A stretch of DNA of 64,000 bases. Source: Paludibacteraceae bacterium. GTDB lineage: Bacteria > Bacteroidota > Bacteroidia > Bacteroidales > Paludibacteraceae. The stretch is taken from positions 62,001 through 126,000 of the forward strand of contig JAFVTU010000017.1 in NCBI GenBank assembly GCA_017503075.1. Direction: 5' to 3'. The notes beneath the pieces were generated by a model, which worked only from the letters and a program-made list of their open reading frames with translations, was not told the DNA's origin and ran no database searches. The position numbers and the translations under genes were made by a program. Shown one piece after another: positions 8,924 through 63,432 of this stretch; position 1 is the stretch's first letter; each line of letters begins with the position of its first letter.

Positions 8924-8962
8924 AACTCTAAACTGTAGGCGTCTAGCGCCGTCCTCTAAACT
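8924..8962. repeat. variable-stem hairpin element, copy at M6/propeptide junction
   Basis: The sequence runs AAACTCTAAACTGTA, then stem GGCG (8938-8941), loop TCTAG, stem CGCC (8947-8950), then GTCCTCTAAA. This matches the flanks of the other hairpin copies in the window while the stem differs. Confidence 0.75.
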
Positions 8963-9251
8963 ACAATCGCTTCGATTGTTTCACTTTTCTGCATGTCGCC
9001 ACAATCCTTCCGTCTTTCTTTTTCTTGGCGTAGCAGATATATCCTTTTTTGTTTTCTTTCACGAGTGTCACGCCGTCTTCCAGCGTCATCCAATGTTTGC
9101 GTTCATCGCCATGCAAACGCACATACACGGTGTCGCCGTTCGGTTGTACTCGTTCTATCACGCCCTTGTATGCAGGCACTCGTGCTGGCTTCTGCTGCGC
9201 CCAAACGCACAAGGCACCACCAATCGCCAATATCAATAATAGTCGTTTCAT
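8961..9251 (-). CDS. small exported protein resembling the N-terminal region of M6 proteases
   Basis: This 96-residue protein has a signal peptide (MKRLLLILAIGGALCVWAQ). The mature part, GVIERVQPNGDTVYVRLHGD followed by ERKHWMTLEDG, aligns by eye with the N-terminal region of the M6 protease immediately downstream in the transcript (GIVKTQPDGSQITVYQHGDE, then HFRWMTNAKG) and with residues 30-55 of the 933-residue M6 protease. There is no protease domain and no sorting domain; it ends in a lysine-rich tail. It may be a free-standing propeptide acting as an inhibitor or chaperone, or a decayed protease remnant. The function is inferred only from similarity and position. Confidence 0.7.
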   Translation of the reverse strand: MKRLLLILAIGGALCVWAQQKPARVPAYKGVIERVQPNGDTVYVRLHGDERKHWMTLEDGVTLVKENKKGYICYAKKKKDGRIVATCRKVKQSKRL

Positions 9252-9252
9252 A

Positions 9253-9339
9253 TTCTAACCTCTAACCTCTAACCTTTAACCTCTAAACTCTAAACTGTAG
9301 CCCAAAGGGCGTTCTCTAAACGGAGCGCGCAGCGCTCTT
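9253..9339. repeat. tandem 7-8 bp repeats plus two hairpins at the mlaF 3' end
   Basis: From 9255 the units TAACCTC/TAACCTT recur five to six times, then CTAAACTGTA leads into hairpin GCCC-AAA-GGGC (9300-9310) followed by GTTCTCTAAA. A second hairpin GAGCGC-GCA-GCGCTC lies at 9323-9337. The second hairpin is inside the mlaF reading frame and encodes its last residues (SAARSV), and the mlaF stop codon lies in the repeat. Confidence 0.75.
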
Positions 9340-10158
9340 TACCTTCTTAAACAACTCGCTCGCAAACACAAAGTCATTCAACGCCTCATTCTCTGCATGG
9401 AATATCTCGTGCCTGCTACCTTGCCACTCTTTCACGCCATTGCGTAGGAACACGATATTATCGCCAATCTCCATAATCGAGTTCATGTCGTGGCTATTCA
9501 CAATGGTACAAATATTATACTCTTGCGTGATGTCTTGTATCAGTTGGTCAATCACCAAACTGGTCTTCGGGTCTAGTCCCGAGTTGGGCTCATCGCAGAA
9601 CAGATACCGTGGATTCAACGCTATCGCTCTCGCAATCGCCACACGCTTTTGCATACCACCACTAATTTCGCTTGGCATCAGTCCAAAAGCTCTCTCTGGC
9701 ATGTTCACACGTGTCAAGCAGAATCGCGCTCTCTCCACCATCTCTTCCTTGTCCATCTGCGAGAACATCTCCAGTGGAAATAGCACATTCTCCTGCACCG
9801 TCATGCTATCAAACAATGCCGCTCCTTGAAACAGCATTCCCACTTCTCTGTGCAGCATCCGCACCTCTTTCTCCGTCATCCCTGCCAAGTTCCTTTGAAC
9901 AACCTGCCCATTACCAATAGGCGCTTGCGCCGTCCTATAGCCCGCAGGGCGTCCCATATCCGTACTTGACCTTGTGTCAAATAATATCTCACCTTCATCT
10001 ATCTGGTGCAGTCCAATCATCGATTTCATCAGCACAGTCTTTCCGCTTCCCGACTGACCGATAATCATATTCACCTTGCCGTCCTCAAAGTCCGCAGAAA
10101 TATGGTCCAGCACCACATTCCCGTCAAAACTCTTTACGACATCCTTTACCTGTATCAT
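9316..10158 (-). CDS. mlaF: MlaF-like lipid-transport ABC ATPase with a repeat-derived insertion
   Basis: This is a 280-residue ABC ATPase of the Mla/Ttg2 branch: Walker A GQSGSGKT near residue 34, the Q-loop in VGMLFQGAALFDSMTV (typical of MlaF), signature ISGGMQKR, Walker B YLFCDEPNSGLDP and H-loop VNSHDM. It forms an inner membrane complex with the MlaE permease encoded just upstream and moves phospholipids between membranes. Between ILFD and MTEKE there are about 25 extra residues; those at 67-81 (GRPAGYRTAQAPIGN) are encoded by two copies of the intergenic hairpin repeat. The C-terminal SAARSV is also repeat-encoded. The core motifs are intact, so it is probably functional. Confidence 0.9.
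   Translation of the reverse strand: MIQVKDVVKSFDGNVVLDHISADFEDGKVNMIIGQSGSGKTVLMKSMIGLHQIDEGEILFDTRSSTDMGRPAGYRTAQAPIGNGQVVQRNLAGMTEKEVRMLHREVGMLFQGAALFDSMTVQENVLFPLEMFSQMDKEEMVERARFCLTRVNMPERAFGLMPSEISGGMQKRVAIARAIALNPRYLFCDEPNSGLDPKTSLVIDQLIQDITQEYNICTIVNSHDMNSIMEIGDNIVFLRNGVKEWQGSRHEIFHAENEALNDFVFASELFKKVKSAARSV
9914..9957. repeat. hairpin repeat pair inside the mlaF coding sequence
   Basis: Hairpin GGCGC-TT-GCGCC (9920-9931) is followed by GTCCTATA, then hairpin GCCC-GCA-GGGC (9940-9950) and GTCC. These are the same flanks (TAG before, GTCC after) as in the intergenic copies. The insertion keeps the reading frame. Confidence 0.8.
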
Positions 10159-10167
10159 AAAACTCTC

Positions 10168-10226
10168 GCCTTTAACCTTTAACCTTTAGCCGCTTGCGGC
10201 GTCCTATAGCCTCAAAGAGGCGTCCT
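10168..10226. repeat. hairpin repeat pair between mlaE and mlaF
   Basis: TTTAACC units are followed by hairpin GCCGC-TT-GCGGC (10189-10200), GTCCTATA, hairpin GCCTC-AAA-GAGGC (10209-10221) and GTCC, ending at the mlaE stop codon. Confidence 0.8.
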
Positions 10227-10973
10227 TTAATTAAGCATCAAATTTGTCAGCACCACATCCATCAGCAGCACTACAATACTACTATTCACCACCGCTTTCG
10301 TACTCGCTTTACCTACTTCCAGCGCACCGCCTCTCGCGTAGTAGCCGTAGTATGACGCCATACTCGCAATGATAAATGCGAAGATCACTGTCTTGATAAA
10401 CGAGTACCACACATAAAACGGTATAAACGCATACTGAATACCCAGCAGATACTCCGACACAGGTAGCACATTCGTAATCGCACTAATGCCATAACCGCCT
10501 AACAAACCCGTGAACATAGACAGTGTCACCAACAGCGGCATCATCAGCATAAACGCCACTATCTTTGGCAATATCAGGTAGTTAGCCGAGTTTACACCCA
10601 TGATTTCCATGGCGTCAATCTGCTCTGTGATACGCATCGTACCAATCTCCGAAGCCATGTTGCTGCCCACCTTACCTGCGAGCAGCAAGCACAAAATCGT
10701 ACTTGAAAACTCCAGCAAGATACAGTCACGTGTCACCAATCCTGTCGAATACGCTGGCAACAGCGGATTCTCCGTGTTCAACTTCGTCTGCAAGGTCATA
10801 ATCGCACCCATAAACACGCTCACAATCAGCGTAATCAGTATCGACTCCAAACCCTGCTTTCCCATCTCTTTGCTCATCTGCCGCCAGAACATACGCCCTT
10901 TATCAGGCACACGAAACACCTTGCCCATCAGCAAGCAATACTCACCTATGCTATAAAAAAATCGCTGTATCAT
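10227..10973 (-). CDS. mlaE: MlaE family lipid ABC transporter permease
   Basis: The 248-residue membrane protein has five to six hydrophobic segments. Conserved MlaE family features include the N-terminal amphipathic stretch, GAIMTLQTKL, the EIGTMRITEQIDAMEIMGVN block near the middle (the family's coupling region) and the C-terminal GKASTKAVVNSSIVVL. It partners the adjacent ATPase to move phospholipids at the inner membrane and maintain outer membrane asymmetry. An MCE-domain partner is not present in the window. It is separated from mlaF by about 70 bp filled by hairpin repeats. Confidence 0.92.
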   Translation of the reverse strand: MIQRFFYSIGEYCLLMGKVFRVPDKGRMFWRQMSKEMGKQGLESILITLIVSVFMGAIMTLQTKLNTENPLLPAYSTGLVTRDCILLEFSSTILCLLLAGKVGSNMASEIGTMRITEQIDAMEIMGVNSANYLILPKIVAFMLMMPLLVTLSMFTGLLGGYGISAITNVLPVSEYLLGIQYAFIPFYVWYSFIKTVIFAFIIASMASYYGYYARGGALEVGKASTKAVVNSSIVVLLMDVVLTNLMLN

Positions 10974-10980
10974 AATTCCT

Positions 10981-11100
10981 TTCCTTTAACCTCTAACCTT
11001 TAACCTCTAACCTTTAGCTCGCCTCGCGAGCGTCCTATAGGCACTTTGTGCCGTCCTATAGCGCAGCGTCCACTAAACAGTAGGGCTTTGCCCGTCTTGC
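10981..11100. repeat. hairpin repeat array between hpt and mlaE (four units)
   Basis: TAACCTC/TAACCTT units from 10986 lead into GCTCGC-CTC-GCGAGC (11017-11031) GTCC, GGCAC-TTT-GTGCC (11040-11052) GTCC, a short GC-GCA-GC unit followed by GTCC, and GGGC-TTT-GCCC (11083-11093) GTC. Stems differ in every unit but remain complementary, and flanks stay constant. This is the densest copy of the family in the window. Confidence 0.85.
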
Positions 11101-11104
11101 AGCA

Positions 11105-11647
11105 TCAATTACCGCGTAGCACATACAACGATGGCAAGTTCCTTCCTTTCTCGTCATAGTCCAACCCATAACCCAATACGAACTTGGTTGGGATCTCCAT
11201 GCCAATGTATTTAGGCGCCGCATCGGGATACTGTAGTGCTTCTGGTTTGAACAAAAATGATGCCACTTCCACACTATTTGCACCCGCATTTTTCAAATAT
11301 GTAATGAAGCCGTGCATCGTCAAACCAGTATCCACAATGTCCTCCATCACAATCACATCGCGACCTTCTAGATTCACTGCAAGAGGCGACAACAACTTTA
11401 CATCACCTGTCGTTTTTGTCCCCTCGTACGATTTCAATCGCACAAAAGTGATTTCTGCGGACAGTTCAATCTGCTTAAACAGATCCGATGCAAACATAAA
11501 TGCACCATTCAGTATGCATATAAATAGAGGCTCCTTGTCTGCATAATCTTTGTTTATACGCTCTGCCACTTTTTTTACACATTCGGCTATTTCATGAGCA
11601 GAGACATACTCATCAAAGATGCGACCATTTACTTCTACACTTGCCAT
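11105..11647 (-). CDS. hpt: hypoxanthine phosphoribosyltransferase
   Basis: This is a 180-residue type I phosphoribosyltransferase. The PRPP-binding loop is VIVMEDIVDTGLTM near residues 97-110, the flexible loop carries RLKSYEGTKTTGDV, and the C-terminal FVLGYGLDYDEKGRNLP is typical of Hpt. It converts hypoxanthine and guanine to IMP and GMP in purine salvage. It has its own promoter (CAAAGTTA, read as TAACTTTG on the minus strand, at 11710-11717) about 60 bp upstream of the start. It could lead an hpt-mlaE-mlaF unit, although the repeats between the genes may affect read-through. Confidence 0.93.
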   Translation of the reverse strand: MASVEVNGRIFDEYVSAHEIAECVKKVAERINKDYADKEPLFICILNGAFMFASDLFKQIELSAEITFVRLKSYEGTKTTGDVKLLSPLAVNLEGRDVIVMEDIVDTGLTMHGFITYLKNAGANSVEVASFLFKPEALQYPDAAPKYIGMEIPTKFVLGYGLDYDEKGRNLPSLYVLRGN

Positions 11648-11709
11648 AACATCAATTTATCTTTTTCTGTTTCACGTTTCCTGTTTTCCGTTTTTGTAAA
11701 AAACGCCCG

Positions 11710-11717
11710 CAAAGTTA
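11710..11717 (-). promoter_or_regulatory. -7 box TAACTTTG for hpt
   Basis: On the minus strand the sequence TAACTTTGCGGG fits the Bacteroidetes TAnnTTTG element, 63 bp upstream of the hpt ATG, with a poly-A/T stretch upstream. Confidence 0.7.
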
Positions 11718-11819
11718 CTACTTTTTTTTGACATACACAACACTTCCGTTATTTTTCTATCCTTTTTCATTATTCCTCCCTTTTCGCAAGTGTGTCACTG
11801 CAACCGCCATGCAGCAGTA

Positions 11820-11935
11820 AATATTAGGTGGTTAGTAGGTTATTAGTAGGTGATTAGTAGGTTATTCAGCGGTCATAGCAGAGATTTCACAATGTTCTAA
11901 ACCCTAAACAATAGCCCGCTTACGGGCGTCCACTA
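11820..11935. repeat. 11-bp degenerate tandem repeat plus one hairpin unit
   Basis: Between 11826 and 11868 the unit TTAGTAGGT(T/G)A recurs about four times. After a 40 bp gap, CTAAACAATA leads into hairpin GCCCG-CTTA-CGGGC (11914-11927) and GTCCACTAAAC, matching the hairpin family. The stretch 11648-12026 holds this, the hpt promoter and the pgm promoter, and no gene. Confidence 0.7.
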
Positions 11936-11940
11936 AACAA

Positions 11941-11987
11941 AAAAATCGCATTTCCCTTGCATATATGCGATTTTTTTCGTACCTTTG
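11941..11987 (+). promoter_or_regulatory. pgm promoter embedded in a hairpin
   Basis: The -7 box TACCTTTG is at 11980-11987 and a -33 TTG at 11957-11959, 20 bp apart. The -33 lies in the loop of an inverted repeat AAAAATCGCA (11941-11950) / TGCGATTTTT (11966-11975). The same arrangement and almost the same sequence occurs on the minus strand at 57933-57980. Confidence 0.75.
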
Positions 11988-12026
11988 CACCCGATAAATT
12001 ATGCCAACTTTAAAAATACATTCAAT

Positions 12027-13802
12027 ATGAAAAACGAAGAACTCGAAAAAGTATTAGCCATTGCTGAGCAATGGACCAAAGAGCCTTATGATGCGGACAC
12101 CCGCGCTGCGGTCAAAGCCATGATTGAGGCAGAAGACAAAACCGAACTCATCGATAGTTTCTATCGCACACTCGAATTTGGTACGGGTGGTCTCCGTGGA
12201 CTTATGGGGCCTGGTACCAACCGCATGAACCAATACATCGTGGCACAAGCCACCCAAGGCTATGCCAACTATCTCCTCAAGGTACAACGCGAAGGCGGTT
12301 TCACTACCCTCAAGGGCGACACCGTGAGCGTCGTAGTAGGTCACGACTGTCGTAATAACGGCCGCCTCTTTGCGGAAACAGTAGCTGCGGTATTTGCTGC
12401 CAACGGCATCAAGGTATATCTCTTTGAGAGCCTACGCCCAACACCAGAGGTTAGCTTCGCTATCCGTCACCTTTCGGCTCAAGGTGGTGTCAATGTAACC
12501 GCCAGCCACAACCCCAAAGAGTACAACGGCTACAAGGCTTATTGGGAGGACGGTAGCCAAGTGCTCCAACCACATGATCAAGGTATCATCGACGAGGTAA
12601 ACAAAGTGACTCTCGCAGACGTGAAAATGACTGGCAATGAGCATCTTATCGAGATCATTGGTGGCGAGATGGACTACGACTACATGCAAGCGGTTAAGAC
12701 TGTCATGATCGACCAAGAGACCATCCTCCGTCAAAAAGACCTCAATATCGTTTATACCCCTCTCCACGGTGCAGGACGCCAAATCATCCCAATGTGCCTT
12801 CGCTCTTGGGGATTCGAGAATATCCACGTAGTGCCTGAGCAAATGGTCATCGATGGCAACTTCTCTACCGTACAAAGTCCTAACCCAGAGAACGCTGAGG
12901 CAATGACTATGGGTATGAACCTCGGCACCCAACTCAACGCCGACCTCGTCATCGCTTCTGACCCAGATGCCGACCGTATCGCTATTGTTTGCCGCAACGA
13001 CAAAGGCGAGTGGACCATCATCAACGGCAACCAAACCTGTATGATGTACTGCTACTACATCATCAATAATATGAAGAAACTCGGCAAACTCCGCCCAGAG
13101 CACTACCTCGTTAAGACCATCGTTACCAGCGAGTTAATCCGTAAGATGGCAGATGCACAAGGTGTGACTTTGACCGACGAATATACAGGCTTCAAATGGA
13201 TTGCTAACCGTATCCGCGAGTGGGAAGGCACACGCAAATACATCGGTGGTGGCGAAGAGAGCTTTGGCTTCTTGCCTTATGATGCAGTCCGCGATAAATG
13301 TTCTCCTTCTGCTATCTGCCTCATCTGCGAGATTGCAGCTTATGCCAAGGACAACGGCATGACCCTCTACGATTATCTCCTTAATATGTATATGGAGTAC
13401 GGCTTCCAACGCGAGACTACTATCAATGTGGTTCGTCCTGGTAAGTCAGGTGCCGAGGAGATTCAAGCCATGATGGTCAACTACCGCCAAAATCCTCCTG
13501 TGGAGATTGCAGGCGAGAAAGTGATTAAGTCTAAAGACTTCAAGACCCTCGTTCAACGCGAATTGGTGAATGGCGAGTGGGTAGAGACACCTATCACGAT
13601 GGCACTCAATGCGACCAGCAATGTGCTCCAATACTTCACCGAAGGTGGCATGAAGATCTCTGTCCGCCCAAGTGGTACCGAACCAAAGATTAAGTTCTAC
13701 TTCGAGATCCCAGCTCAAATGCCAACTCCAGCCGACTACGACAAAGCCGTAGCCGAAGCCGAAGCCAAAGTTCCAGCGATCAAAGCAAGTCTAGGTATCT
13801 AA
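12027..13802 (+). CDS. pgm: phosphoglucomutase/phosphomannomutase (alpha-D-phosphohexomutase)
   Basis: The ATG at 12027 gives MKNEELEKVLAIAEQW, 40 bp after the -7 box; reading further upstream in frame runs into the promoter. The 591-residue enzyme has the four family sites: TASHNP with the phosphoserine near residue 146, the metal loop DPDADR near 309, the sugar-binding GGEESFG near 410, and the phosphate-binding RPSGTEPKIKFY near 547. It interconverts hexose 1- and 6-phosphates in the cytoplasm for glycolysis and nucleotide-sugar synthesis. The length fits the PgcA-type enzymes of Bacteroidetes. Codon use is strongly biased, as expected for high expression. Confidence 0.93.
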   Translation: MKNEELEKVLAIAEQWTKEPYDADTRAAVKAMIEAEDKTELIDSFYRTLEFGTGGLRGLMGPGTNRMNQYIVAQATQGYANYLLKVQREGGFTTLKGDTVSVVVGHDCRNNGRLFAETVAAVFAANGIKVYLFESLRPTPEVSFAIRHLSAQGGVNVTASHNPKEYNGYKAYWEDGSQVLQPHDQGIIDEVNKVTLADVKMTGNEHLIEIIGGEMDYDYMQAVKTVMIDQETILRQKDLNIVYTPLHGAGRQIIPMCLRSWGFENIHVVPEQMVIDGNFSTVQSPNPENAEAMTMGMNLGTQLNADLVIASDPDADRIAIVCRNDKGEWTIINGNQTCMMYCYYIINNMKKLGKLRPEHYLVKTIVTSELIRKMADAQGVTLTDEYTGFKWIANRIREWEGTRKYIGGGEESFGFLPYDAVRDKCSPSAICLICEIAAYAKDNGMTLYDYLLNMYMEYGFQRETTINVVRPGKSGAEEIQAMMVNYRQNPPVEIAGEKVIKSKDFKTLVQRELVNGEWVETPITMALNATSNVLQYFTEGGMKISVRPSGTEPKIKFYFEIPAQMPTPADYDKAVAEAEAKVPAIKASLGI

Positions 13803-13855
13803 TGAGGTTTAGTATGTGATGTCTCTTGTTCGTTACCTATCTGTTACCTGACAAA

Positions 13856-13892
13856 GACGGCAACGACACGGCAACGAGACGGCAACGACAGC
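13856..13892. repeat. ACGGCAACG tandem repeat
   Basis: Downstream of pgm the 10-12 bp unit (G)ACGGCAACGA occurs three times in a row. It resembles the other locus-specific short tandem repeats of this genome. Confidence 0.7.
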
Positions 13893-13970
13893 ACCCTTTA
13901 CCGAGAGAAAGTAAAGAAATATATATCAGATAAAAAATATTTTGCCTATGAAACATTAGTGTGTAGTTGA

Positions 13971-15660: not shown

Positions 15661-15708
15661 GAGCCTTTAAACTCTAAACTATAGCTCGCTCAGCGAGCGT
15701 CCTCTAAC
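15661..15708. repeat. hairpin repeat after the Dabb gene
   Basis: TTTAAACTCTAAACTATA leads into hairpin GCTCGC-TCA-GCGAGC (15684-15698), then GTCCTCTAACC. The stem repeats that of 11017-11031 but with a different loop. Confidence 0.8.
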
Positions 15709-18054: not shown

Positions 18055-18135
18055 CCTCTAAACAGTAGCTTGCTCTGCAAGCGTCCTGTAGCGAAGCGTC
18101 CCCTAAATAGTAGCCCCAAGGGCGTCCACTAAACA
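18055..18135. repeat. hairpin repeat array upstream of pepO (three units)
   Basis: CTAAACAGTA leads into GCTTGC-TCT-GCAAGC (18068-18082) GTCC, a minimal GC-GAA-GC unit with GTCC, then CTAAATAGTA and GCCC-CAA-GGGC (18113-18123) GTCC. It lies in the leader of pepO between promoter and start codon. Confidence 0.85.
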
Positions 18136-23821: not shown

Positions 23822-25171
23822 ATGTTAAAGCAATATACTATCCTTCTCCTCTTCTGTCTCTGCGCCGCCCATAGCGCAGCCACCTCCCTCTCCCTTCGTG
23901 ACTGCATGGAGTATGCCATCGCCCATTCTGCGAAAATGGAAATCCAACACGCCAACAACGACGATGCCCGCATCGCACGCCGCGAAGCCATCCTCCGTGC
24001 CTTCACACCCACTGTCCAAGGTGGCACATACGCCTCGCTGAACTTCGGACGCGGTATCGACCCCGAAACTAATAGTTATATCTCCACCACCTCGTTCAAC
24101 AACGGCTACTCCCTGTCGGGTGCTATCACACTGTTCAACGGTTTTTCGGCAGTCAATAACCTCAAAATCACCAAGACTGCCATCAAGATGGGCATCACGG
24201 AGGAGCAACAACTCCGTGACCAAATATGCCTCGCAGTCATGGAAGCATACTGCAATGTGCTCTATTTCACTCAGATGACCGAAGCCCTGCAAGTCCAAGT
24301 TGCTACCGCCACCAGCAACCTGCAATTGGCACAACGCCAAGAACAATTGGGGCAGAAAAGCCATGCCGATGTCATCCAACTCGAAGCTGACCTCGCCGAG
24401 CGTGAATATCAATATATCACCATGACCAACCAACTCAACGACGCCCGCATGACCCTCCAAGATCTTATGCTGTGGGAGGAGGACTACGAATTGCTCATCG
24501 ACCTCCAGAGCACCGAGAATCTAACAGCGAGCCACGCGAGCAGTCTAACAGCCGCAGGCGGTCTAGTATCTAACAGCAAAGCCCTTCACCACCCATCGGT
24601 CGAACTGGCTGCCTATCGCATGGCTAACGCCCAATTCGACCTCAACACGGCGCGTTGGCGATTGGCTCCGTCGCTCTCCCTCTCAGGCGGTTGGTCAACG
24701 GGTTACTACACCTATCCCCGTACCCAAGACTATGTAGCCATGCCTTTTGCCAGTCAGTTCATCAACAACAGCGGCGAGTATGTGCAGTTGTCCTTGTCTA
24801 TCCCAATCTACGATGGCTTGTCGCGCCAGTCGAATATCGTGCGCAAGAAAAACGCCTACCGCCGTGCCGAAGCCGAGTATCGCCAAACGCTGCGCGAGGT
24901 AGAGGCAGAGATGGCGCGTGCTGTGCAAGACCGTGATGGTGCAATGTCAGCCCTCAAGCAAGCCGACCGCCGAGCCAAAGCGCAGCAGGAAGCATACGCC
25001 ATCAATAGCAAGAAGTTCGAGCAAGGGCTTATCTCTCCCCTCGAACTCAAGACCTCATCAGACAACCACCTCAATGCCCAAGCCGAGCACCTCAACGCCC
25101 AGCTGAAGTACTTCATCAAATCCTGCGTAGTCCGCTACTACAACGGTATCCCTTATCTTGAACAACTATAA
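23822..25171 (+). CDS. tolC: TolC family outer membrane efflux protein
   Basis: The start at 23822 gives MLKQYTILLLFCLCAAHSAA, a signal peptide; the earlier ATG at 23798 lies too close to the sigma-54 promoter. The 449-residue protein has the two-fold repeat of outer membrane efflux proteins (LRDCMEYAIAHS near the start, long coiled-coil helices rich in Gln and Ala, and a second repeat with LSIPIYDGLSRQSNI). It should form the trimeric channel for the adaptor and ABC permeases encoded from 27.9 kb, with which it shares promoter type and enhancer. Residues about 232-254 (LTASHASSLTAAGGLVSNSK) derive from TCTAACA-type hairpin repeats. Confidence 0.9.
   Translation: MLKQYTILLLFCLCAAHSAATSLSLRDCMEYAIAHSAKMEIQHANNDDARIARREAILRAFTPTVQGGTYASLNFGRGIDPETNSYISTTSFNNGYSLSGAITLFNGFSAVNNLKITKTAIKMGITEEQQLRDQICLAVMEAYCNVLYFTQMTEALQVQVATATSNLQLAQRQEQLGQKSHADVIQLEADLAEREYQYITMTNQLNDARMTLQDLMLWEEDYELLIDLQSTENLTASHASSLTAAGGLVSNSKALHHPSVELAAYRMANAQFDLNTARWRLAPSLSLSGGWSTGYYTYPRTQDYVAMPFASQFINNSGEYVQLSLSIPIYDGLSRQSNIVRKKNAYRRAEAEYRQTLREVEAEMARAVQDRDGAMSALKQADRRAKAQQEAYAINSKKFEQGLISPLELKTSSDNHLNAQAEHLNAQLKYFIKSCVVRYYNGIPYLEQL
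24517..24590. repeat. TCTAACA-type hairpin repeat inside tolC
   Basis: Three units share CTAACA before and GTCTA or similar after a short stem-loop: GCGAGC-CAC-GCGAGC (imperfect), GCC-GCA-GGC (24551-24559) with GGTCTA, and GC-AAA-GC. The same flanks occur in the non-coding spacer at 27850-27895. Confidence 0.7.
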
Positions 25172-27842: not shown

Positions 27843-27899
27843 ATAGTCTAACATCCAACAGCATAGCGGTCTAACAGTAAAACGGTCTAACATCTAAAT
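27843..27899. repeat. TCTAACA-type repeat in the efflux operon leader
   Basis: Units TCTAACATCCAACA, GC-ATA-GC, GGTCTAACA, GT-AAA-AC, GGTCTAACATCTAA follow in a row. The very short variable stem-loops sit in the same flanks as the repeat inside tolC. Confidence 0.7.
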
Positions 27900-32405: not shown

Positions 32406-32469
32406 GCGCGCCAATCAAAAGCACCCCAAAAAGCAAGCTTTTTCGGGGACCCCGCACATCCTGGCGCGC
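32406..32469. repeat. compound inverted repeat between ATPase and second permease
   Basis: Outer arms GCGCGCCA (32406-32413) and TGGCGCGC (32462-32469) enclose an inner hairpin with CCCC, AAAAAGC, loop AA, GCTTTTT and, after one bulged C, GGGG (32424-32448). As an mRNA element it would lie just upstream of the second permease. Confidence 0.75.
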
Positions 32470-37619: not shown

Positions 37620-39020
37620 ATGAAATCCAAAGCCAAAATACTTGTCGTGGACGACAACAAAGGTATTCGCGCAGCGCTGGAGATGTTGCTGCCGCGATTC
37701 TTTGCTGAGGTGGAGATGCTGTCTTCGCCTAAGTCGTTGCAATCCACCATCCGCGAACTGCAACCCGATGTGGTGCTGCTCGATATGAACTTCCAAACCG
37801 CTATCAACACGGGCAACGAAGGACTTTACTGGCTCTCCGAAATCAAACAGTTTGCACCCAATATCGAAGTGGTGCTCTTCACCGCCTACGGCGATATTCA
37901 ACTCGCAGTAGAGGGCATGAAACGCGGAGCGTTCGATTTCATTGTCAAACCTTGGGATAACAACAAACTCGTTGAGACTCTTACCCTTGCGTACCAACAG
38001 AAAATTAAACGCACAGGCAAGAAATCTCCAAGCTCATCGCCCATAACCAATAGCCAATCGCCCAAAATGCACTGGGGTTCCAGCCCTGCCATGACTACTA
38101 TCCGCAAGCAATTGGAGAAAGTGGCTACCACCGATGCATCTATCCTCATCACGGGCGAGAATGGTACGGGTAAGGATGTCCTTGCCAACGAGATCCACCG
38201 CCTCTCGGTGCGTGCCAACCGTCCGATGGTGTGCGTGGACGCAGGCGCTATTACCGAAACACTCTTCGAGAGCGAACTGTTCGGACATGTCAAAGGTGCT
38301 TTCACTGATGCACATGCCGACAAAATGGGTAAGTTCGAGCAAGCCAACGGCGGTACGCTCTTCCTCGATGAGATTGGCAATATCCCATTGCACTTGCAAG
38401 CGAAACTCTTGCGCGTGCTGCAAAACCGTTCTATCGTGCGTGTAGGTGACACCAAAGAGATACCCATTGATATCCGTCTTATCTGTGCTACCAACCGCGA
38501 CATTCCGCAAATGGTACAGGACGGCACCTTCCGCGAGGACTTGTACTATCGCATCAACACGATGCACCTGCAACTCCCACCGTTGCGCCAACGCCAAGAC
38601 GAGATTCTGCCGCTGGCTGAACGTTTCATGCAAACTTATGCCGAACGCTACCACCGCAATGTGAATGCGTTGGCACCCGAAGCGCAACAAGCCCTGCTGG
38701 CACATACTTGGTCGGGCAATATCCGCGAACTCAACAACTGCATAGAAAAAGCCGTCATCCTCTCCGAAGGCGACACACTCACCCTTGCTGATTTGCAACT
38801 GCCGTTGCCATCTAGTACCCAATATCCAATAGGCGGAACGCCGTCCAATAGCCAATATCCAACAGCCGACAGCGCAGCTGTAGAGACTTTAGAAACCGTC
38901 GAAGAGCGTGCTATCCGCAACGCTATGGCGCAACACGATGGCAATTTGTCTTTAGTCGCCAAAGCTCTCAACATCAGCCGCCCAACCCTCTACGCCAAAC
39001 TGAAAAAGTACGGGATATAA
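37620..39020 (+). CDS. sigma-54-dependent NtrC-family response regulator
   Basis: The 466-residue protein has a receiver domain (1-120: D11, D12, phospho-acceptor D55, K110), an AAA+ domain (about 150-375: Walker A GENGTGKD, the sigma-54 contact loop GAFTDA at 226-231, Walker B GGTLFLDEIG) and a Fis-type helix-turn-helix at the end (LSLVAKALNISRPTLYAKL). It is the natural candidate to act at the TGTAAAG palindromes and sigma-54 promoters of tolC and the efflux operon. Both interdomain linkers (residues 137-150 and about 396-422) are built from CCAATA-type repeats, and one includes a hairpin unit. The kinase gene follows after 2 bp. Confidence 0.93.
   Translation: MKSKAKILVVDDNKGIRAALEMLLPRFFAEVEMLSSPKSLQSTIRELQPDVVLLDMNFQTAINTGNEGLYWLSEIKQFAPNIEVVLFTAYGDIQLAVEGMKRGAFDFIVKPWDNNKLVETLTLAYQQKIKRTGKKSPSSSPITNSQSPKMHWGSSPAMTTIRKQLEKVATTDASILITGENGTGKDVLANEIHRLSVRANRPMVCVDAGAITETLFESELFGHVKGAFTDAHADKMGKFEQANGGTLFLDEIGNIPLHLQAKLLRVLQNRSIVRVGDTKEIPIDIRLICATNRDIPQMVQDGTFREDLYYRINTMHLQLPPLRQRQDEILPLAERFMQTYAERYHRNVNALAPEAQQALLAHTWSGNIRELNNCIEKAVILSEGDTLTLADLQLPLPSSTQYPIGGTPSNSQYPTADSAAVETLETVEERAIRNAMAQHDGNLSLVAKALNISRPTLYAKLKKYGI
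38030..38066. repeat. CCAATAG-type repeat, first linker of the regulator
   Basis: It encodes SSSPITNSQSPK between receiver and AAA+ domains and contains CAATAGCCAATCGCC, the 15-mer also present in nifJ. Confidence 0.75.
38810..38875. repeat. CCAATA-type repeat with hairpin, second linker of the regulator
   Basis: CCCAATATCCAATA leads into hairpin GGCG-GAA-CGCC (38832-38842) and GTCCAATAGCCAATATCC. The TAG before and GTCC after the stem are the constant flanks of the intergenic hairpin family. Confidence 0.8.
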
Positions 39021-53931: not shown

Positions 53932-55194
53932 TTAATCGTATAATAGGGTGTAGATCGTTTCGGGGGCGAATACTTCGTTGGCGACGTCTTGGAGTTGGGT
54001 GGGGGTGATGGTCTGTATGCGAGCGAAGGTGTCTTGCCACGCAGGGGCATGGTGGTGATAAAGCATCTGCTTTGCCATAGCGAGGGCATTATTCTCCTGA
54101 TTCTCAGCAGAAATAGCCATCTGTCCTTCCAACTGGCGCAGGGCGCGCTGGAGTTGGGTACTAGTTAGCGTAGTGTCACGCAATTGCTTGAGTTCCTTAT
54201 GGCAGAGCTCAAGGCATTGGTCCTTGTGTTGTGGTTCGCAGGCGAGGTAGATGTTCCAATAGCCCGTGTCGCTGAGTGGTACTGCTTGTGAATCAATATT
54301 ATATACCAGTCCATATTTCTCGCGCAGACTCAAATACAATCGGCTAGACATACTGCCACCGCCAAGGATATTATTGAGCAAGTACATGGTCAGTTGTTTG
54401 GGATGACCGATAGGGTAGGCATGTGAGCCAAGCATAAGGTGGGTTTGGTGGGTGTGGCGGCGGTAGGTGCGGGTGAGGGACGCTTCGCTATGGGATATAT
54501 GTGAGGAGGCGATAGAAATGCTAGAAGCACTAGATATACTAGAAGTACTAGATATACTAGTGATTTCTCCTAATTCTTTTTCGGCGGCGGAGATGACTTG
54601 TTGGGTAGTGACATTGCCGAGGACAAAGAGCACCATGCGCTCAGAGCGGTAGTGCTGTTGCATCCAATTGAGCGCGATATCGGGTGACTTGGAGATGCGG
54701 CGAAGGGTCTTCTTTGTGCCAAGGATAGGCATAGCCAGTGAACTACCCTCAAAAATCATGTTTTCGAAGTCGTCGTAGATGAGTTCGCTGGGTGAGTCGT
54801 TGTAACTCTCTATCTCATCGAGGATGACGGTGAGCTCCTTGTCGGTTTCCTTTTTATGAAATGTTGGGCGAAGCACCATATCCGCTAGCAGATGGAGGGT
54901 AGTGCGGAAGTGTTGGCGCAGGGTGGCCGCATAGAAAGTGGTTTCTTCTTTGGTGGTATAGGCATTGATTTCGCCGCCGATTCCCTCGATATGATTGATG
55001 ATTTGGCGAGCAGTGTAGTGCTGCGTACCTTTGAAGACACAATGCTCGATGTAATGCGCCATGCCGTTCTCGTTGGGGAGTTCGTGGCGTGTGCCTGCGC
55101 CAACCATTATGCCGACATAAACGACAGGAGAAGTGGTCTTGCGGTGGACAATTTGCAGCCCATTTGGTAAATTATGATAAAAAGTTTCGTACAT
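53932..55194 (-). CDS. M16 family zinc peptidase (pitrilysin-like)
   Basis: The 420-residue protein has the inverted zinc motif HYIEH (H47, E50, H51) in NGMAHYIEHCVFKGT, then INAYTTKEETTFYA and the second conserved Glu region. The second half is the inactive M16 repeat (LYLSLREKYGLVYNID). There is no signal peptide, so it may act in the cytoplasm or periplasm; its family degrades peptides. Residues 208-232 are Ser/Ile rich (SSTSSISSASS) and come from a CTAGATATACTAGAAG-type repeat in the DNA. Confidence 0.92.
   Translation of the reverse strand: MYETFYHNLPNGLQIVHRKTTSPVVYVGIMVGAGTRHELPNENGMAHYIEHCVFKGTQHYTARQIINHIEGIGGEINAYTTKEETTFYAATLRQHFRTTLHLLADMVLRPTFHKKETDKELTVILDEIESYNDSPSELIYDDFENMIFEGSSLAMPILGTKKTLRRISKSPDIALNWMQQHYRSERMVLFVLGNVTTQQVISAAEKELGEITSISSTSSISSASSISIASSHISHSEASLTRTYRRHTHQTHLMLGSHAYPIGHPKQLTMYLLNNILGGGSMSSRLYLSLREKYGLVYNIDSQAVPLSDTGYWNIYLACEPQHKDQCLELCHKELKQLRDTTLTSTQLQRALRQLEGQMAISAENQENNALAMAKQMLYHHHAPAWQDTFARIQTITPTQLQDVANEVFAPETIYTLLYD
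54520..54565. repeat. CTAGAAGCACTAGATATA repeat inside the M16 gene
   Basis: ACTAGATATACTAGAAGTACTAGATATACTAG (quoted in parts: CTAGATATA and CTAGAAGYA) alternates 9-bp units in frame, giving the Ser-rich linker. Confidence 0.75.
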
Positions 55195-57542: not shown

Positions 57543-57592
57543 TTTAGTGAACGCGGCAGAGCCGCTACTGTTTAGTGTTTAGAGTTTAGTGG
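57543..57592. repeat. hairpin repeat between lpxH and the SufT-like gene (reverse orientation)
   Basis: GAAC, hairpin GCGGC-AGA-GCCGC (57553-57565), TACTG and TTTAGTGTTTAGAG units. This is the reverse complement of the usual TAG-stem-loop-stem-GTCC layout. Confidence 0.8.
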
Positions 57593-57907: not shown

Positions 57908-57932
57908 TTGATATAATCTCACAAATAGCGTA

Positions 57933-58181: not shown

Positions 58182-58199
58182 AATATGAAATATTTTTTG

Positions 58200-58207: not shown

Positions 58208-58255
58208 CAGCGGAATTCAGAGAAAACATGAATTTTGAATTAAGGAGTTTGAATT

Positions 58256-58714: not shown

Positions 58715-58731
58715 ATTAAACCTAACCAACT

Positions 58732-59763
58732 ATGAATGAGATTTATCACATTCCCGCGATGCTGAGAGAGACAATCCAAGGGTTGAATATTCAACCCGAT
58801 GGATTGTATGTGGACGTGACCTTCGGTGGCGGAGGACACTCGAGGGCGATATTGGAAGCCCTTCGGGCTGTTCAGGATAGTGTAGAATTGTGTAGTGGGA
58901 AGTTGTACTCTTTTGATCAGGATTTGGATGCGTATGAGAATGCGATGCATTCGGATTTTGGGAATCGGGAATCAGGAATCGAGCGTCGGGATTCGCGATA
59001 CTCACATTGGCAGTTTGTGCATAGTAACTTCCGTTATCTGCGCAATTTTATGGATTATTATGGTGTGGAGCAGATAGATGGTTTGTTGGCAGACTTGGGA
59101 GTGTCGTTCCACCATTTTGATTGTCCAGAAAGAGGGTTTAGTTTTCGTTTCTCTGCTCCATTGGACATGCGTATGAATCAGACGGGAGGTAAGACGGCGG
59201 CGGATATTCTGAATACATACAGTGAAGAAGACCTCGCGCGCGTGTTATATATATATGGTGAGATGAATAATTCGCGTCAGTTGGCGAAGAAGATTGTCAA
59301 AGCACGAGGGCAGAAAGCGATAGAGCGGACGGAGGAGTTGGTGGAAGTGGTAATGGGACGCCCTGTAGGGGTAATGGACGCTGCTTCGCAGCTATTGGAT
59401 AATGGGTATCGGGAGCTGGATATACCTGCAGGAGCAAAGAAAGATTTGGCGAGATTGTTTCAAGCACTACGTATAGAGGTGAATGATGAAATGGGGGCAC
59501 TGAGAGAGATGTTGCTGGCAGCCAAAGACTTGCTGAAACCCGGAGGCAGGATAGTGATACTGACCTATCATTCGTTGGAAGATAGAATGGTGAAGAACTT
59601 TCTACGTTCGGGAAACTTGGAAGGGAAGATAGAGAAGGATTTTTATGGCAACATACTGAGTCCGTTTAAGGTGTTGGCAAAGGGAACTATGGCGAGTGCA
59701 GAGGAAGTAGAACGTAATCCAAGAGCTCGAAGTGCAAAATTGCGTGTAGCAGAAAAAATATAA
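58732..59763 (+). CDS. rsmH: 16S rRNA m4C1402 methyltransferase RsmH with two inserted segments
   Basis: The 343-residue protein has YVDVTFGGGGHSRAIL (SAM site), LYSFDQDLDAY, DGLLADLGVSFHHFD, PERGFSFRF and the end NPRARSAKLRVAEK, all typical of RsmH/MraW. Compared with the usual length near 305 it has two extra stretches, RAVQDSVELCSGK (about 44-56) and MHSDFGNRESGIERRDSRY (about 70-90). These coincide with short DNA repeats (GTGTAGAATTGTGTAG, GGGAATCGGGAATCAGGAAT). Both lie between conserved motifs, so activity is probably kept. Confidence 0.93.
   Translation: MNEIYHIPAMLRETIQGLNIQPDGLYVDVTFGGGGHSRAILEALRAVQDSVELCSGKLYSFDQDLDAYENAMHSDFGNRESGIERRDSRYSHWQFVHSNFRYLRNFMDYYGVEQIDGLLADLGVSFHHFDCPERGFSFRFSAPLDMRMNQTGGKTAADILNTYSEEDLARVLYIYGEMNNSRQLAKKIVKARGQKAIERTEELVEVVMGRPVGVMDAASQLLDNGYRELDIPAGAKKDLARLFQALRIEVNDEMGALREMLLAAKDLLKPGGRIVILTYHSLEDRMVKNFLRSGNLEGKIEKDFYGNILSPFKVLAKGTMASAEEVERNPRARSAKLRVAEKI
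58880..58990. repeat. two short-repeat segments inside rsmH
   Basis: GTGTAGAATTGTGTAG (58880-58895) recalls the repeat at 56740. GGGAATCGGGAATCAGGAAT with a further GGGATTCG (58959-58997) is a 7-bp tandem repeat. Confidence 0.7.
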
Positions 59764-59785
59764 AAAACTAAACTAGAAACAAGCT

Positions 59786-60094: not shown

Positions 60095-61890
60095 GCGAGA
60101 ACCTTAAAAATACAATTTTGCGTTTTGCTATCGTGTTCGTGTTGATAGCATTGATGTTTTGCGTTGTATTTGTTCGCATTATTGTGTTGCAAACAGTTCA
60201 ACGCGACAAGTGGATGAGTGTCGTAGAACAAGAGAATAATTATAAGCCTATCAAGGCGTTGCGCGGTAATATATATGATTGCAAGGGGCAATTGTTAGCA
60301 ACTAGTGTACCTCAATATCGAATATATTTAGATACCCGTGTTCAGGCATTGCGCTTGAATAATGGCGCAGTGTTTTGGGAGTATGTAGATAGTATTGCCG
60401 ATGGGATGAGTAGGATAGTGGGTGATCAGTCCAAAGAGGAATATCGTAAGCGGATGATTGCTTCTTATCATAGTCGTAATAATCGAGGGAACTACATGCG
60501 ATTAACTAGTGAACGCATCTCCTATACCCAATTGAAAGAGATAAAAAAGTTGCCATTGATAAGTGGTGGGTTTTATAAAAGTGGATTCCAAGAGGAAGAG
60601 TTGAATTCGCGTGTCAAGCCGTTTAAGAGTTTAGGTGGAAGAACGATAGGCAATATTTACACCGTTAGTGGCGAGGCGAAGTCTGGTTTGGAGATGCGTT
60701 ATGACTCTTATTTGCGTGGCGAAGATGGTACTAGCGTGCGTCAAAGAGTGGCGGGTCGTTTGGAGAGAATACCTCTTGTGGAGGCGAAGAATGGTTGCGA
60801 TTTGCATACTACATTTGATGCTAATTTGATGGATATCTGTGAGACCTCGCTTCGCAAACGACTGGAGCATACAAGAGCCGAATGGGGATGTGTGGTACTG
60901 ATGGATGTGCAGACTGGCGAAATAAAAGCAATGAGTAATTTGGACCGTTTGGGTAATGATTCTTATGAAGAGATTGCTAATCACGCTGTTGTACGCATGG
61001 AGCCAGGTTCTACATTTAAGACCATTTCGTTGATGGCGGCGTTGGATGATGGTAAAGTGAAAATGGATGATTCTATTAGTGTGGATAAAGCAGGTTGGCT
61101 GTATCATGATGCAAAGATTTTGGATGCTCACCCTCGTGACACGGTCTATAGTATTCGTCAGGCCATGGCTGCTAGTAGTAATATAGCTTTGGCAAAAATT
61201 ATTACGATGGGGTACGGTGGTAGTGCAAAGAAGTTTGTGAAGAAATTACATGGCATGGGTTTGTGTGATAGTGTGGATTACACTATCCCTGGTGCTACTC
61301 AGGCTCTAATTAATGTTCCGAATGATACTGTTACTATAGCCAAGATGGCGTATGGTTATTCGGTGGAATTGAGTCCGTTACAGACATTAATGTTCTACAA
61401 TGGTATAGCTAATGATGGCAAGGTGATGAAGCCATTGTTTGTAAAGGAGATACGCCAAAATGGTAAAACTATAGAATCGTTTGAGAGTTGTGTGATAAAT
61501 AACGATATGTGTGATGCTTCTACGTTACGAGGGATAAGAGAATGTTTGCATGATGTGGTGTGGGATAATGATTTTGGCACCGCTTCTATTACTCCATGGA
61601 AAACTCGCAAGGCTCAGAGTGATTTGGTGTCTATAGCAGGTAAAACAGGAACAGCGCAAATCCATGAACAAGGATACACGAATCGTCGTCACCGAATGTC
61701 ATTTGTGGGATATTTTCCTGAAGATAATCCGCAATATTCTTGTATTTGTGTAATTCATGCTCCTCAAGGTGCATATGATTCAGGATTGGATTGTGGAATA
61801 GTAGTGCGTCAGATAGCAGAGAAGACAATGGCATATGCAGGGGAATATGTGCTGAAAAGGAACGAACAAGTATTGGTAGTGAACAAATAA
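60091..61890 (+). CDS. ftsI: penicillin-binding protein, division transpeptidase (FtsI/PBP3-type)
   Basis: The 599-residue class B PBP has one membrane segment near residues 8-32, a dimerisation domain (RGNIYDCKGQLLATS) and a transpeptidase domain. The active serine is in GSTFK (SxxK), the second motif is SSN and the third KTGTAQ. It crosslinks septal peptidoglycan. No PASTA domain is evident at the C-terminus, which ends soon after the KTG domain. The start overlaps the ftsL stop (ATGA). Confidence 0.93.
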   Translation: MSENLKNTILRFAIVFVLIALMFCVVFVRIIVLQTVQRDKWMSVVEQENNYKPIKALRGNIYDCKGQLLATSVPQYRIYLDTRVQALRLNNGAVFWEYVDSIADGMSRIVGDQSKEEYRKRMIASYHSRNNRGNYMRLTSERISYTQLKEIKKLPLISGGFYKSGFQEEELNSRVKPFKSLGGRTIGNIYTVSGEAKSGLEMRYDSYLRGEDGTSVRQRVAGRLERIPLVEAKNGCDLHTTFDANLMDICETSLRKRLEHTRAEWGCVVLMDVQTGEIKAMSNLDRLGNDSYEEIANHAVVRMEPGSTFKTISLMAALDDGKVKMDDSISVDKAGWLYHDAKILDAHPRDTVYSIRQAMAASSNIALAKIITMGYGGSAKKFVKKLHGMGLCDSVDYTIPGATQALINVPNDTVTIAKMAYGYSVELSPLQTLMFYNGIANDGKVMKPLFVKEIRQNGKTIESFESCVINNDMCDASTLRGIRECLHDVVWDNDFGTASITPWKTRKAQSDLVSIAGKTGTAQIHEQGYTNRRHRMSFVGYFPEDNPQYSCICVIHAPQGAYDSGLDCGIVVRQIAEKTMAYAGEYVLKRNEQVLVVNK

Positions 61891-61904
61891 AATAGTAAGG
61901 ATAC

Positions 61905-63389
61905 ATGAAGCTTTCTGAGTTGATAAAGTGTATAGACGTGTTGCGCGTAGTGGGCGACACGAACAGAGAGGTGGCTGATCTTCAATTTGACTCGCGCCGT
62001 GTGGGTGAGGGATGTTTGTTTGTGGCGCAAGTGGGTACAGCAGCCGATGGACACGCATATATTGAGCAATGTGTGGCGAAAGGGGCAGTGGCTGTGGTAC
62101 TGGAGAAAGAGGAATATATCAAGGACGATGGCGTATGCTATATCCTGGTGAAAAACAGCGATGAGGCGTTGGGCAAGATGGCGCACTATTGGTGTGGTGA
62201 ACCTAGCAAGCAACTGAAATTGGTGGGCGTGACTGGCACGAACGGCAAAACGACTACCGCAACATTGCTATATAAGCTTTTCAAAGCATTGGGATACAAA
62301 GCAGGACTGCTGTCAACGGTGGTGAATTATGTGGATGATGAGGCAGTGGCTGCGACGCATACGACGCCTAATGCATTGGAACTGAATGCATTGCTAGCTA
62401 GGATGGTAGCAGCAGGTTGTACGCATGCGTTTATGGAAGTGAGTAGCCACGCTATCGCTCAAGAGCGTATTGCAGGGTTGGAGTATGCAGGCGCGTTGTT
62501 CACGAATTTGACACGCGACCATTTGGATTATCACAAGACGTTTGATAACTACCGCGATACGAAAAAGATCTTGTTTGACCGATTGGGCAAAGAGGCGTTT
62601 GCAATAACGAATATTGATGATAGGAATGGATTAGTGATGACGCAAAACTGTCGCGGTCGCGTGCTGACTTATTCCACCCATAGCATGGCGGATTTCCGTG
62701 GCAAGATACTGGAGGAGGGCTTCGATGGTATGCTGCTGCGCGTACAGAGTACGTTGGGTGCGGTGAATACGGAAGTGTTTGTGCCGCTGGTAGGTCGGTT
62801 CAATGTGAGCAACTTGCTGTTGATCTATGGTGCTGCGGTGGCATTGGGTGAAGATGCAATGGAAGTGCTGCGTATCTTAAGTGGGTTGCAACCTGTGAAT
62901 GGTCGCTTTGAGACTATCCGCTCGCCAAAGGGCTGGACAGCAGTGATAGACTATGCGCACACCCCCGATGCGGTGGAGAATGTGCTGAAGACTATCAACG
63001 AGATTGTGGCAGCGAATATAGGGAAACAGTCTGCCCCCGCACAAGTGATTACAGTGGTGGGTTGCGGCGGCAATAGAGATAAAGGTAAACGTCCGATTAT
63101 GGCGAAGAGTGCATATCAATTGAGTACGCAACTGATTTTGACATCTGATAATCCTCGCGATGAAGAACCTGCTGATATTCTGAAAGATATGGCAGCAGGG
63201 CTGACAAACGAGGAACTGCGCCATACGCTGATTATAGAAGACCGCGAGTCGGCTATCAAGACGGCTTGCACCTTGGCTCGACAGGGCGATGTGATACTGG
63301 TGGCAGGCAAAGGACACGAAGATTATCAGATAGTTAAAGGTGTGAAGCACCACTTTGATGACCATGAAGTGGTGAGGGGATGTTTATAG
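61905..63389 (+). CDS. murE: UDP-MurNAc-tripeptide synthetase (meso-DAP adding)
   Basis: The 494-residue Mur ligase has the ATP-binding loop GTNGKTTT near residue 110, HTTPNALEL, the central SSHAIAQERIAG and Mur C-terminal domain GGNRDKGKRPIMAK. The motif DNPRDEEP near residue 410 marks enzymes that add meso-diaminopimelate. It acts in the cytoplasm on UDP-MurNAc-L-Ala-D-Glu. It follows the PBP gene by 14 bp in the same operon. Confidence 0.95.
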   Translation: MKLSELIKCIDVLRVVGDTNREVADLQFDSRRVGEGCLFVAQVGTAADGHAYIEQCVAKGAVAVVLEKEEYIKDDGVCYILVKNSDEALGKMAHYWCGEPSKQLKLVGVTGTNGKTTTATLLYKLFKALGYKAGLLSTVVNYVDDEAVAATHTTPNALELNALLARMVAAGCTHAFMEVSSHAIAQERIAGLEYAGALFTNLTRDHLDYHKTFDNYRDTKKILFDRLGKEAFAITNIDDRNGLVMTQNCRGRVLTYSTHSMADFRGKILEEGFDGMLLRVQSTLGAVNTEVFVPLVGRFNVSNLLLIYGAAVALGEDAMEVLRILSGLQPVNGRFETIRSPKGWTAVIDYAHTPDAVENVLKTINEIVAANIGKQSAPAQVITVVGCGGNRDKGKRPIMAKSAYQLSTQLILTSDNPRDEEPADILKDMAAGLTNEELRHTLIIEDRESAIKTACTLARQGDVILVAGKGHEDYQIVKGVKHHFDDHEVVRGCL

Positions 63390-63432
63390 TTTAGAGAACG
63401 TCGCAAAGCGGCTACAGTTTAGAGTTTAAAGG
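63386..63432. repeat. hairpin repeat between murE and mraY (reverse orientation)
   Basis: TATAGTTTAGAGAAC, then GTCGC-AAA-GCGGC (63400-63412, one mismatch), then TACAGTTTAGAGTTTA. It is again the reverse complement of the TAG/GTCC layout. Confidence 0.75.

Follow-up and report, generated by a model that had tools for sequence, protein, structure and literature searches.

How can a family of small hairpins keep its stems paired while the stem sequence changes from one copy to the next? The question is raised by a 64-kb stretch of a Paludibacteraceae metagenome-assembled genome (MAG) of 2.06 Mb in 30 contigs (G000, contig C7, positions 62001–126000; hereafter the window), in which a first-pass annotation had named 16 hairpins of the general form TAG–stem–loop–stem–GTCC. 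It had read their paired but variable stems, set in nearly constant flanks at gene junctions, as the work of a process that rewrites both arms or of selection on pairing alone. Our analysis of these sequences and of their relatives, which are MAGs from ruminants, indicates that the hairpins are parts of arrays with a 7-nt register and head-to-tail order, that a loop rule of GNA triloops on short stems and an avoidance of identical neighbours govern their make-up, that at least two further flank classes have one and the same architecture, and that the contents of individual slots turn over fast between sibling species.

All 16 named sites are hairpins in the described layout, 15 with perfect stems between TA and GT(C/T)(C/T) and one, at 63400, with a single mismatch; four further copies lie at 11061, 18091 and 54482 (all three two-bp GC-GNA-GC mini-hairpins) and at 59380. 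A strict scan of the window (TAG, a perfect stem of at least 3 bp, GTCC) returned 12 plus-strand and 2 minus-strand matches, one of the latter (29003, GAT) due to chance, which places the window copies far above 20 second-order Markov resamplings with 0–2 matches each; the family thus withstands the comparison with shuffled sequence that the annotation had named as a possible refutation. When eight other trailing words were scanned in the window, six gave 0–1 matches and CTTC and GTTC gave 3 each, GTTC being a variant tail. Stems do vary between copies with pairing kept, since 98.8% of stem cells are paired in 17 window copies, a value that none of 500 shuffles reached and that follows in part from the stems having been picked as stems; more generally, the element finders require paired stems, and pairing percentages are not independent evidence. 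The near-constant flanks resolved into degenerate 7-nt repeats, about (A/C)C(T/A)NTAN. Not every copy is placed at a gene junction: some lie within genes, encoding an ABC ATPase, a response regulator, an M16 peptidase and an MraW-family protein.

The 7-nt periodicity is most evident upstream of first hairpins, where self-match rises to 0.48 at lag 7 against 0.21–0.30 at other lags up to 12; at lag 7 random stretches give 0.26, and sequence downstream of hairpins a weaker 0.33. Of 186 first hairpins, 118 are immediately preceded by two heptads that match, compared with 7 of 500 random stretches. The hairpin replaces the last base of a heptad, giving NRTA-[G stem loop stem C]-GTCC with a class 1 heptad of about MCWNTAN, and the base before TA in the 186 first hairpins is A in 55% and G in 39%. 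Stems measure 2–7 bp and start G-C, the G of TAG being the first paired base and the C of CGTCC also being paired. Across five genomes, linkers between successive same-strand hairpins are 8+7n nt long in 137 of 144 cases (8 nt in 116, 15 in 16, 22 in 3, 29 in 2, other lengths in 7), and neighbours within 60 nt point the same way, head-to-tail, in 144 of 146. Relative to genes, called with a simple open reading frame (ORF) heuristic, antisense and sense copies number 36 and 26 in G000, 84 and 19 in its congener G014, and 33 and 51 in G098. The finder behind the element total and the linker and neighbour counts, which accepts 2-bp stems only with GNA loops, detected 341 elements (329 without contig C13 of G000) as opposed to 21 on reversed sequence. 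G000 carries duplicated contigs and 5.5% contamination, and the other genomes compared are drafts; C13, which overlaps C29, was excluded from the flank-class, word, loop, heptad, linker and neighbour counts. The overlap spans 19.9 kb, identical except for 22 nt in an ACACCTT-type heptad tract about 5244 nt in, a difference that reflects either an assembly overlap or a strain variant.

What is conserved, if not the letters of the stem? The first-pass annotation had listed mostly triloops of diverse sequence; the loops of the shortest stems, however, are not arbitrary. In the five genomes, GNA makes up 38 of 48 triloops on 2-bp stems, 8 of 11 on 3-bp, 40 of 66 on 4-bp, 7 of 78 on 5-bp and none of 30 on 6-bp stems, that is, 86/125 for stems of 2–4 bp against 7/108 for those of 5–6 bp (Fisher p = 3e-24 on copies; 17/39 against 6/66, p = 6e-5, on distinct stem/loop types). 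A deduplicated set that includes other species repeats the gradient over 2–6 bp (58/62, 8/9, 49/68, 7/86, 0/22). GNA was not demanded in these loop counts, nor in the flank-class counts, and 2-bp stems were restricted to GC, or to GC and GG. TNC, which is GNA read on the other strand, occurs on 2 of 125 short stems. RNA is not known to share the stability of such GNA mini-hairpins, and RNA stems of two base pairs should not fold. DNA mini-hairpins that combine a GNA loop with at least two G-C pairs are credited with extraordinary stability, GCGAAGC melting at 78 °C (PMC4686876). The loop rule suggests that single-stranded DNA is the selected form and that the fold itself is under selection, which makes the spread of such repeats testable.

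A further regularity concerns neighbours. None of the 116 pairs separated by an 8-nt linker in the five genomes share a stem, against a null of 10.2 ± 2.9 that fell to zero in 0 of 10000 shuffles; the count remains 0 (8.4 expected) for stems of at least 3 bp, and 0 of 60 (4.4 expected; 40 of 5000 shuffles likewise gave 0) when G014 is left out. With loci of other species added, 5 of 167 such neighbours share a stem, all of 2 bp, where the null is 15.9. At linkers of 15 nt or more the avoidance is absent (2/23, null 2.1), and avoidance of reverse-complement neighbours is not significant (1 against 2.4 expected). Two identical stems in a row might pair with each other over the linker, or slippage might remove one of them; in both cases unlike stems would be left next to one another, and this explains why the stems seem to differ at nearly every copy. 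The earlier suggestion of selection on pairing is thus borne out to the extent that the fold seems selected, on the evidence of the loop and neighbour rules.

Stem words are concentrated: of 298 class 1 stems counted over G000, G098 and G014, 212 are one of nine words (GCCC, GC, GCCGC, GCTCGC, GGCGC, GGCG, GCGGC, GGC and GCCTC). A dense local expansion of class 1 arrays lies on contig C17 of G014 at about 69–79 kb (L094, 9900–19000) and draws on a small set of words, GCCC.gaa, GCCGC.tcc, GGCGC.tcc and GCTCGC.tt.

A covariance model of 33 positions, built on the 17 window copies, extended the search to whole genomes and relatives. It matched at least 140 sites in G000 at E≤1 (150 of 558 candidates scored) and at least 143 in G014 at E≤0.1 (150 of 685 scored). 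Among 358 genomes of the family, with 19 candidates scored per genome, 49 had a match at E≤0.001, and 22, G000 included, had at least 12 matches, all of these in one genus; two other genera contributed one genome each with one match. A stem-free three-unit pattern run over a genome collection gave at least 114 stretches. Of the 80 listed, 41 were from Paludibacteraceae or Bacteroidales and 40 of these 41 hold finder units, the remaining listed stretches being scattered over other phyla and many of them GC-rich. Viral contigs gave 4 matches to the same pattern, in none of which the element finder saw an array.

Do both arms change together at one locus over time? Among close relatives, identity around the ABC-transporter region is 90–95%, and the junction between the ABC ATPase and MlaE permease genes carries the same two-hairpin array in G000, G098 and G100, heptads only in G118 and G112, AATTCTT-type repeats in G187, ACTCATA-type heptads in G014, and next to nothing in G116 and G117. 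Different repeat classes occupy one slot in siblings with 95–97% identity around it; in one such slot, where the alignment is 97% identical, a class 1 hairpin of G118 has as its counterpart in G098 a different repeat that contains palindromes of its own. Elsewhere a hairpin of G000 stands in place of heptads of G098 with the outer flanks unaltered. When sibling species replace the contents of a slot in this way, new spacers and in-frame protein linkers also arise rapidly. As to target-site duplication, none of the compared loci showed a cleanly empty site with precise boundaries.

Of 269 orthologue rows spanning a hairpin, which are redundant (both directions, overlapping units), 151 have a gap in the hairpin; the 118 aligned without gaps comprise 63 identical, 22 differing in the loop only, 23 uncompensated, 5 compensated and 5 mixed. 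Reading the last three groups by eye, and dropping loop-adjacent, chance and misaligned rows, left seven loci with uncompensated stem change (38832 in the response-regulator gene, 63400, C29 at 27.8 kb, the M16 gene, a G112 copy upstream of the ABC gene, L086/L221, and C30 at 100 kb/L091) and two with pairing kept. At the latter, GCGCC.ttt became GCGGC.ttc and GCCGC.ttt became GGCGC.atc, so that stem and loop changed together, as if one hairpin word had replaced another. The idea that related strains would show stems rewritten in pairs therefore holds only in part: stems differ in a paired manner among copies, but with seven uncompensated loci against two that keep pairing, the comparison does not support a process that mainly rewrites the two arms in place, and many of the other differences are gains, losses or replacements of units. 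Paired change within a locus was accordingly rejected as the chief origin of the variety of stems. Because same-locus changes are mostly uncompensated, stem diversity seems to come from the copying and swapping of unlike units.

A two-hairpin array at 79.1 kb of C30 in G000 is identical to that at 101.8 kb of C7 in G098, with flanks of only 81% identity, hinting at a recent exchange or conversion of the array alone. L136 (5284–5444) and L200 (2164–3518) come from MAGs 99.5–99.8% identical on both sides and differ by about 1.2 kb at the array locus; the additional segment contains two small ORFs, toxin–antitoxin-like by eye, and has on its flanks hairpin arrays together with a terminator-like sequence that is present in duplicate.

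The architecture is not tied to one set of flanks. Listing the flanks of GCGNAGC mini-hairpins brought out flank sets other than class 1. For class 2 (CTACA-hairpin-GATC), 74 elements were counted where reversed controls gave 4; its linkers are of 8 nt (12) and 15 nt (6) among 22, and its loops follow the GNA trend (25/33, 12/12, 3/6, 1/8). Class 3 (AACA-hairpin-GGTC) has 54 against 10, with linkers of 9 nt (5) and 16 nt (1) among 9 and a less clear trend (12/20, 6/10, 1/3, 1/3). What classes 1–3 have in common is, judging from these comparisons, the layout and not the letters. Candidate classes 4 and 5, with 22 and 28 elements where the reversed-sequence controls gave 11 and 21, are not claimed. 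Class 3-like hairpins occur in the window at 24551–24559 and 27861–27867.

We propose, tentatively and with a little less than even confidence, that these are selfish or near-neutral arrays of two interchangeable modules, the heptad and the small hairpin, that spread through replication-linked template switching. The TAG strand, once single-stranded, would fold into the hairpins, probably at replication forks, and a paused fork may then switch template in heptad register into other arrays, the heptads common to all arrays of a class serving as in-register microhomology. Such a switch would copy hairpins as blocks, add or remove 7-nt units, and swap one array for another. Hairpins that fold alone, without cross-pairing to the next one, would be retained, allowing many stem words to coexist, and after copying a hairpin would drift and decay without compensation. 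We speculate that a single-strand binding protein with a 7-nt site, such as a cold-shock-type OB fold, could set the pitch; CspB of Bacillus subtilis is cited as binding heptamer repeats, one protein per heptamer (PMC4679880). Several points weigh against this proposal. Template switching is inferred from end states only, and it explains neither how new slots are seeded nor why the GTCC tail is constant. TNC loops occur on 19 of 108 long stems, partly through the repeated word GCCGC.tcc of one G014 region; the GNNA tetraloop, also stable in DNA, is without enrichment (4/53 tetraloops); and stem mismatches show no decisive polarity, with 16 G·T and 11 A·C (14 and 8 once filtered by hand). The genomes agree on no preferred orientation to genes or to replication, and the correlation with GC skew, negative in three genomes, is confounded both by gene strand and by the base composition of the elements.

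Could a different engine write these arrays? We regard as possible, though doubtful, an undescribed replication-linked or enzymatic process that writes and rewrites dispensable slots in this genus, with modules set by shape and 7-nt pitch, their sequence free and their geometry inherited; the modules would be heptads of several classes and single-stranded DNA mini-hairpins subject to one rule of stability and another against cross-pairing. Unlikely in our judgement is that the hairpins are non-autonomous mobile elements of a dedicated single-stranded DNA enzyme, of HUH/Y1 or RAYT-like kind or otherwise unknown, that reads hairpin shape and the TA/GTCC flanks. The single-stranded DNA fold signature, the strand polarity and the high copy number would fit such an enzyme, and relaxases and IS200/IS605 enzymes are described as binding folded single-stranded DNA hairpins, relaxases with non-specific stem contacts (PMC8266576); yet a search with Y1_Tnp (PF01797) at E≤0.001 left 17 of the 21 array-rich genomes screened (a set to which the array-rich G184 does not belong) without a match, including G014, which is 98% complete, and none of the compared loci offered a clean empty site at which a constant point of cleavage could be read. 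RVT_1 was likewise unmatched in 13 of the 21, and 10 have neither an RVT_1 nor a Y1 match, so that no common engine of either kind was seen, with incomplete MAGs and divergent enzymes leaving room.

In snap-back, or hairpin-primed, synthesis, a stem of any sequence would arise fully paired in one step and decay later. In its favour, stem changes at orthologous loci are mostly uncompensated, so that perfect pairing seems to go back to the origin of the hairpin, and human Pol theta is reported to start stem-loop synthesis from two base pairs (PMC11292364). Against it, the nine recurrent words show that many copies reuse a word already present, and the constant GTCC tail would again be unexplained; we consider this route quite improbable. 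We give still less credence to RNA elements, whether terminators, leaders, or processing or translation signals under RNA-structure selection, or repeats spread through RNA intermediates. Some copies do lie near start codons, and a role as binding sites for regulators has been suggested for heptamer repeats that precede gene starts (PMC4679880); against this, the GNA rule fits DNA, orientation to genes is inconsistent across G000, G014 and G098, most array-rich genomes are without an RVT_1 match, and orthologous slots are often empty or hold another repeat. Rfam models at gathering scores found only a tRNA in the window. RAYT/Y1 transposition, reverse transcription and a known RNA family are disfavoured by the profile and Rfam results.

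How do these arrays relate to known repeats? The nearest kind appears to be the cyanobacterial small dispersed repeats (SDRs) and heptad repeats (STRR heptamers). Elhai and colleagues reportedly described SDRs in 2008 as hairpins of 21–27 nt with compensatory changes, often in tandem heptamers and with nested insertions. SDRs have reportedly been proposed to move through RNA, and no transposase is known for them. Short hairpins embedded in tandem heptamers (here before 118 of 186 first hairpins, and with 8+7n linkers) would be common to both, as would paired stem differences among copies, although same-locus changes here are mostly unpaired; the phylum and the letters differ, and stem diversity here looks like a swapping of units rather than compensation in place. 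The 8+7n register, the GNA rule and the neighbour rule were measured in the present arrays. Integron attC sites are likewise folded single-stranded DNA recognised by shape, with variable stems; our arrays have 2–7 bp stems and no cassette per site was seen, in the course of work that included no search aimed at an integrase or its boxes. SDRs are placed among the repeats whose origin awaits elucidation in a paper on REPINs (PMC3116915).

Repetitive extragenic palindromes (REPs) of the GTAG and CGTC kinds resemble the arrays in being high-copy palindromes with a tag beside the hairpin and some copies within genes (PMC3733652). According to the same account, GTAG REPs have stems of 5–13 bp and CGTC REPs of 8–9 bp, with family-typical sequence and mainly as head-to-head dimers, and CGTC REPs occur in Bacteroidetes without a dedicated transposase (PMC3733652). 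The arrays, in contrast, have 2–7 bp stems of free sequence, head-to-tail order and a tag on the 3′ side. The unpaired 5′ GTAG of GTAG REPs is replaced by a TAG whose G is paired, their RAYT/Y1 transposase by the profile's silence in 17 of 21 array-rich genomes, and their head-to-head or tail-to-tail pairs by 144 of 146 neighbours facing the same way; in place of the unpaired CGTC and AT-starting 8–9 bp stems of CGTC REPs there are G-C-starting stems with the C paired. REPIN/RAYT systems share hairpins that act as folded, strand-specific single-stranded DNA (PMC3116915; PMC8266576), whereas the arrays are without REP doublets and mostly without a Y1 match. TAACTGA heptamers of Beggiatoaceae, cyanobacteria and five Bacteroidetes are likewise intergenic tandem heptamers, often near start codons, patchy and of unknown mechanism, but are described as one fixed heptamer (PMC4679880), while the heptads here are degenerate and interrupted by hairpins. 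In the open-access literature we found no description of such arrays in Paludibacteraceae or other Bacteroidales. Heptamer repeats and small hairpin repeats have been on record for a long time with no mechanism to explain them; in the present case they are found in high copy, in many close species and under quantitative rules.

The copies in the window are on the plus strand up to 38842 and on the minus strand beyond. A class 1 hairpin GGCG.tctag.CGCC (8938–8950), after CTCTAAACTGTA and before GTCCTCTAAAC, is identical in G098 and G118. A CTAACCT/CTAAACT-type tract with 7-nt periodicity (9255–9299) leads into GCCC.aaa.GGGC with the tail GTTC (9300–9310); in place of the aaa loop G098 has taa, while G118 and G100 have gaa. 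GGCGC.tt.GCGCC (9920–9931) lies within the ABC ATPase gene (ORF 9316–10158, minus strand), as an insert absent from G098, G118, G100 and G112, and is followed after an 8-nt linker by GCCC.gca.GGGC (9940–9950). A CTTTAAC heptad tract, as read from the sequence (10166–10188), precedes GCCGC.tt.GCGGC (10189–10200), which is joined by an 8-nt linker to GCCTC.aaa.GAGGC (10209–10221); this is the array shared with G098 and G100 and represented in G118 by heptads only.

A further run begins with a tract read as CCTTTAA/CCTCTAA heptads (10983–11016) and continues with GCTCGC.ctc.GCGAGC (11017–11031), GGCAC.ttt.GTGCC (11040–11052) and the mini-hairpin GC.gca.GC (11061–11067), the latter two each after an 8-nt linker, then, after 15 nt, GGGC.ttt.GCCC with the tail GTCT (11083–11093). 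Farther along come GCCCG.ctta.CGGGC (11914–11927), GCTCGCT.c.AGCGAGC (15684–15698) and GCTTGC.tct.GCAAGC (18068–18082). To the last are attached the mini-hairpin GC.gaa.GC (18091–18097) by an 8-nt linker and GCCC.caa.GGGC (18113–18123) by a 15-nt linker. GGCG.gaa.CGCC (38832–38842) falls in a sigma-54 response-regulator gene (37620–39020), in the linker before the helix-turn-helix, and reads GGCA.gaa.CGCC, uncompensated, in G098.

On the minus strand, the mini-hairpin GC.gaa.GC (54482–54488) lies within the M16 peptidase gene (53932–55194), where G098 has a four-hairpin array. GCGGC.tct.GCCGC with the tail GTTC (57553–57565) is the same in G118 and gives way to another repeat class in G098. 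GCTGC.gaa.GCAGC (59380–59392), with a paired stem, is within the MraW-family methylase gene (58732–59763) and is followed by a decayed second unit at about 59357–59371. GCCGC.ttt.GCGAC (63400–63412), the copy with one mismatch, corresponds to GCCGC.ttt.GCGGC in G098.

A palindromic repeat of CTCCCTT..AAGGGAG type occupies, in G098 and G187, some slots which in G000 are filled by class 1 hairpins. The scanned stretches also contain 6 copies of a second hairpin family, GGGGTCCCCGAA–variable inner stem–TTGGGGTG, at sites that include 32420–32453 of the window (minus strand), C30 of G000, L092 at about 5063, and L093 at about 6732 and 7495. Two G014 copies of this family sit inside the loop of a class 1 hairpin, and at one of these sites the G000 orthologue is without them.

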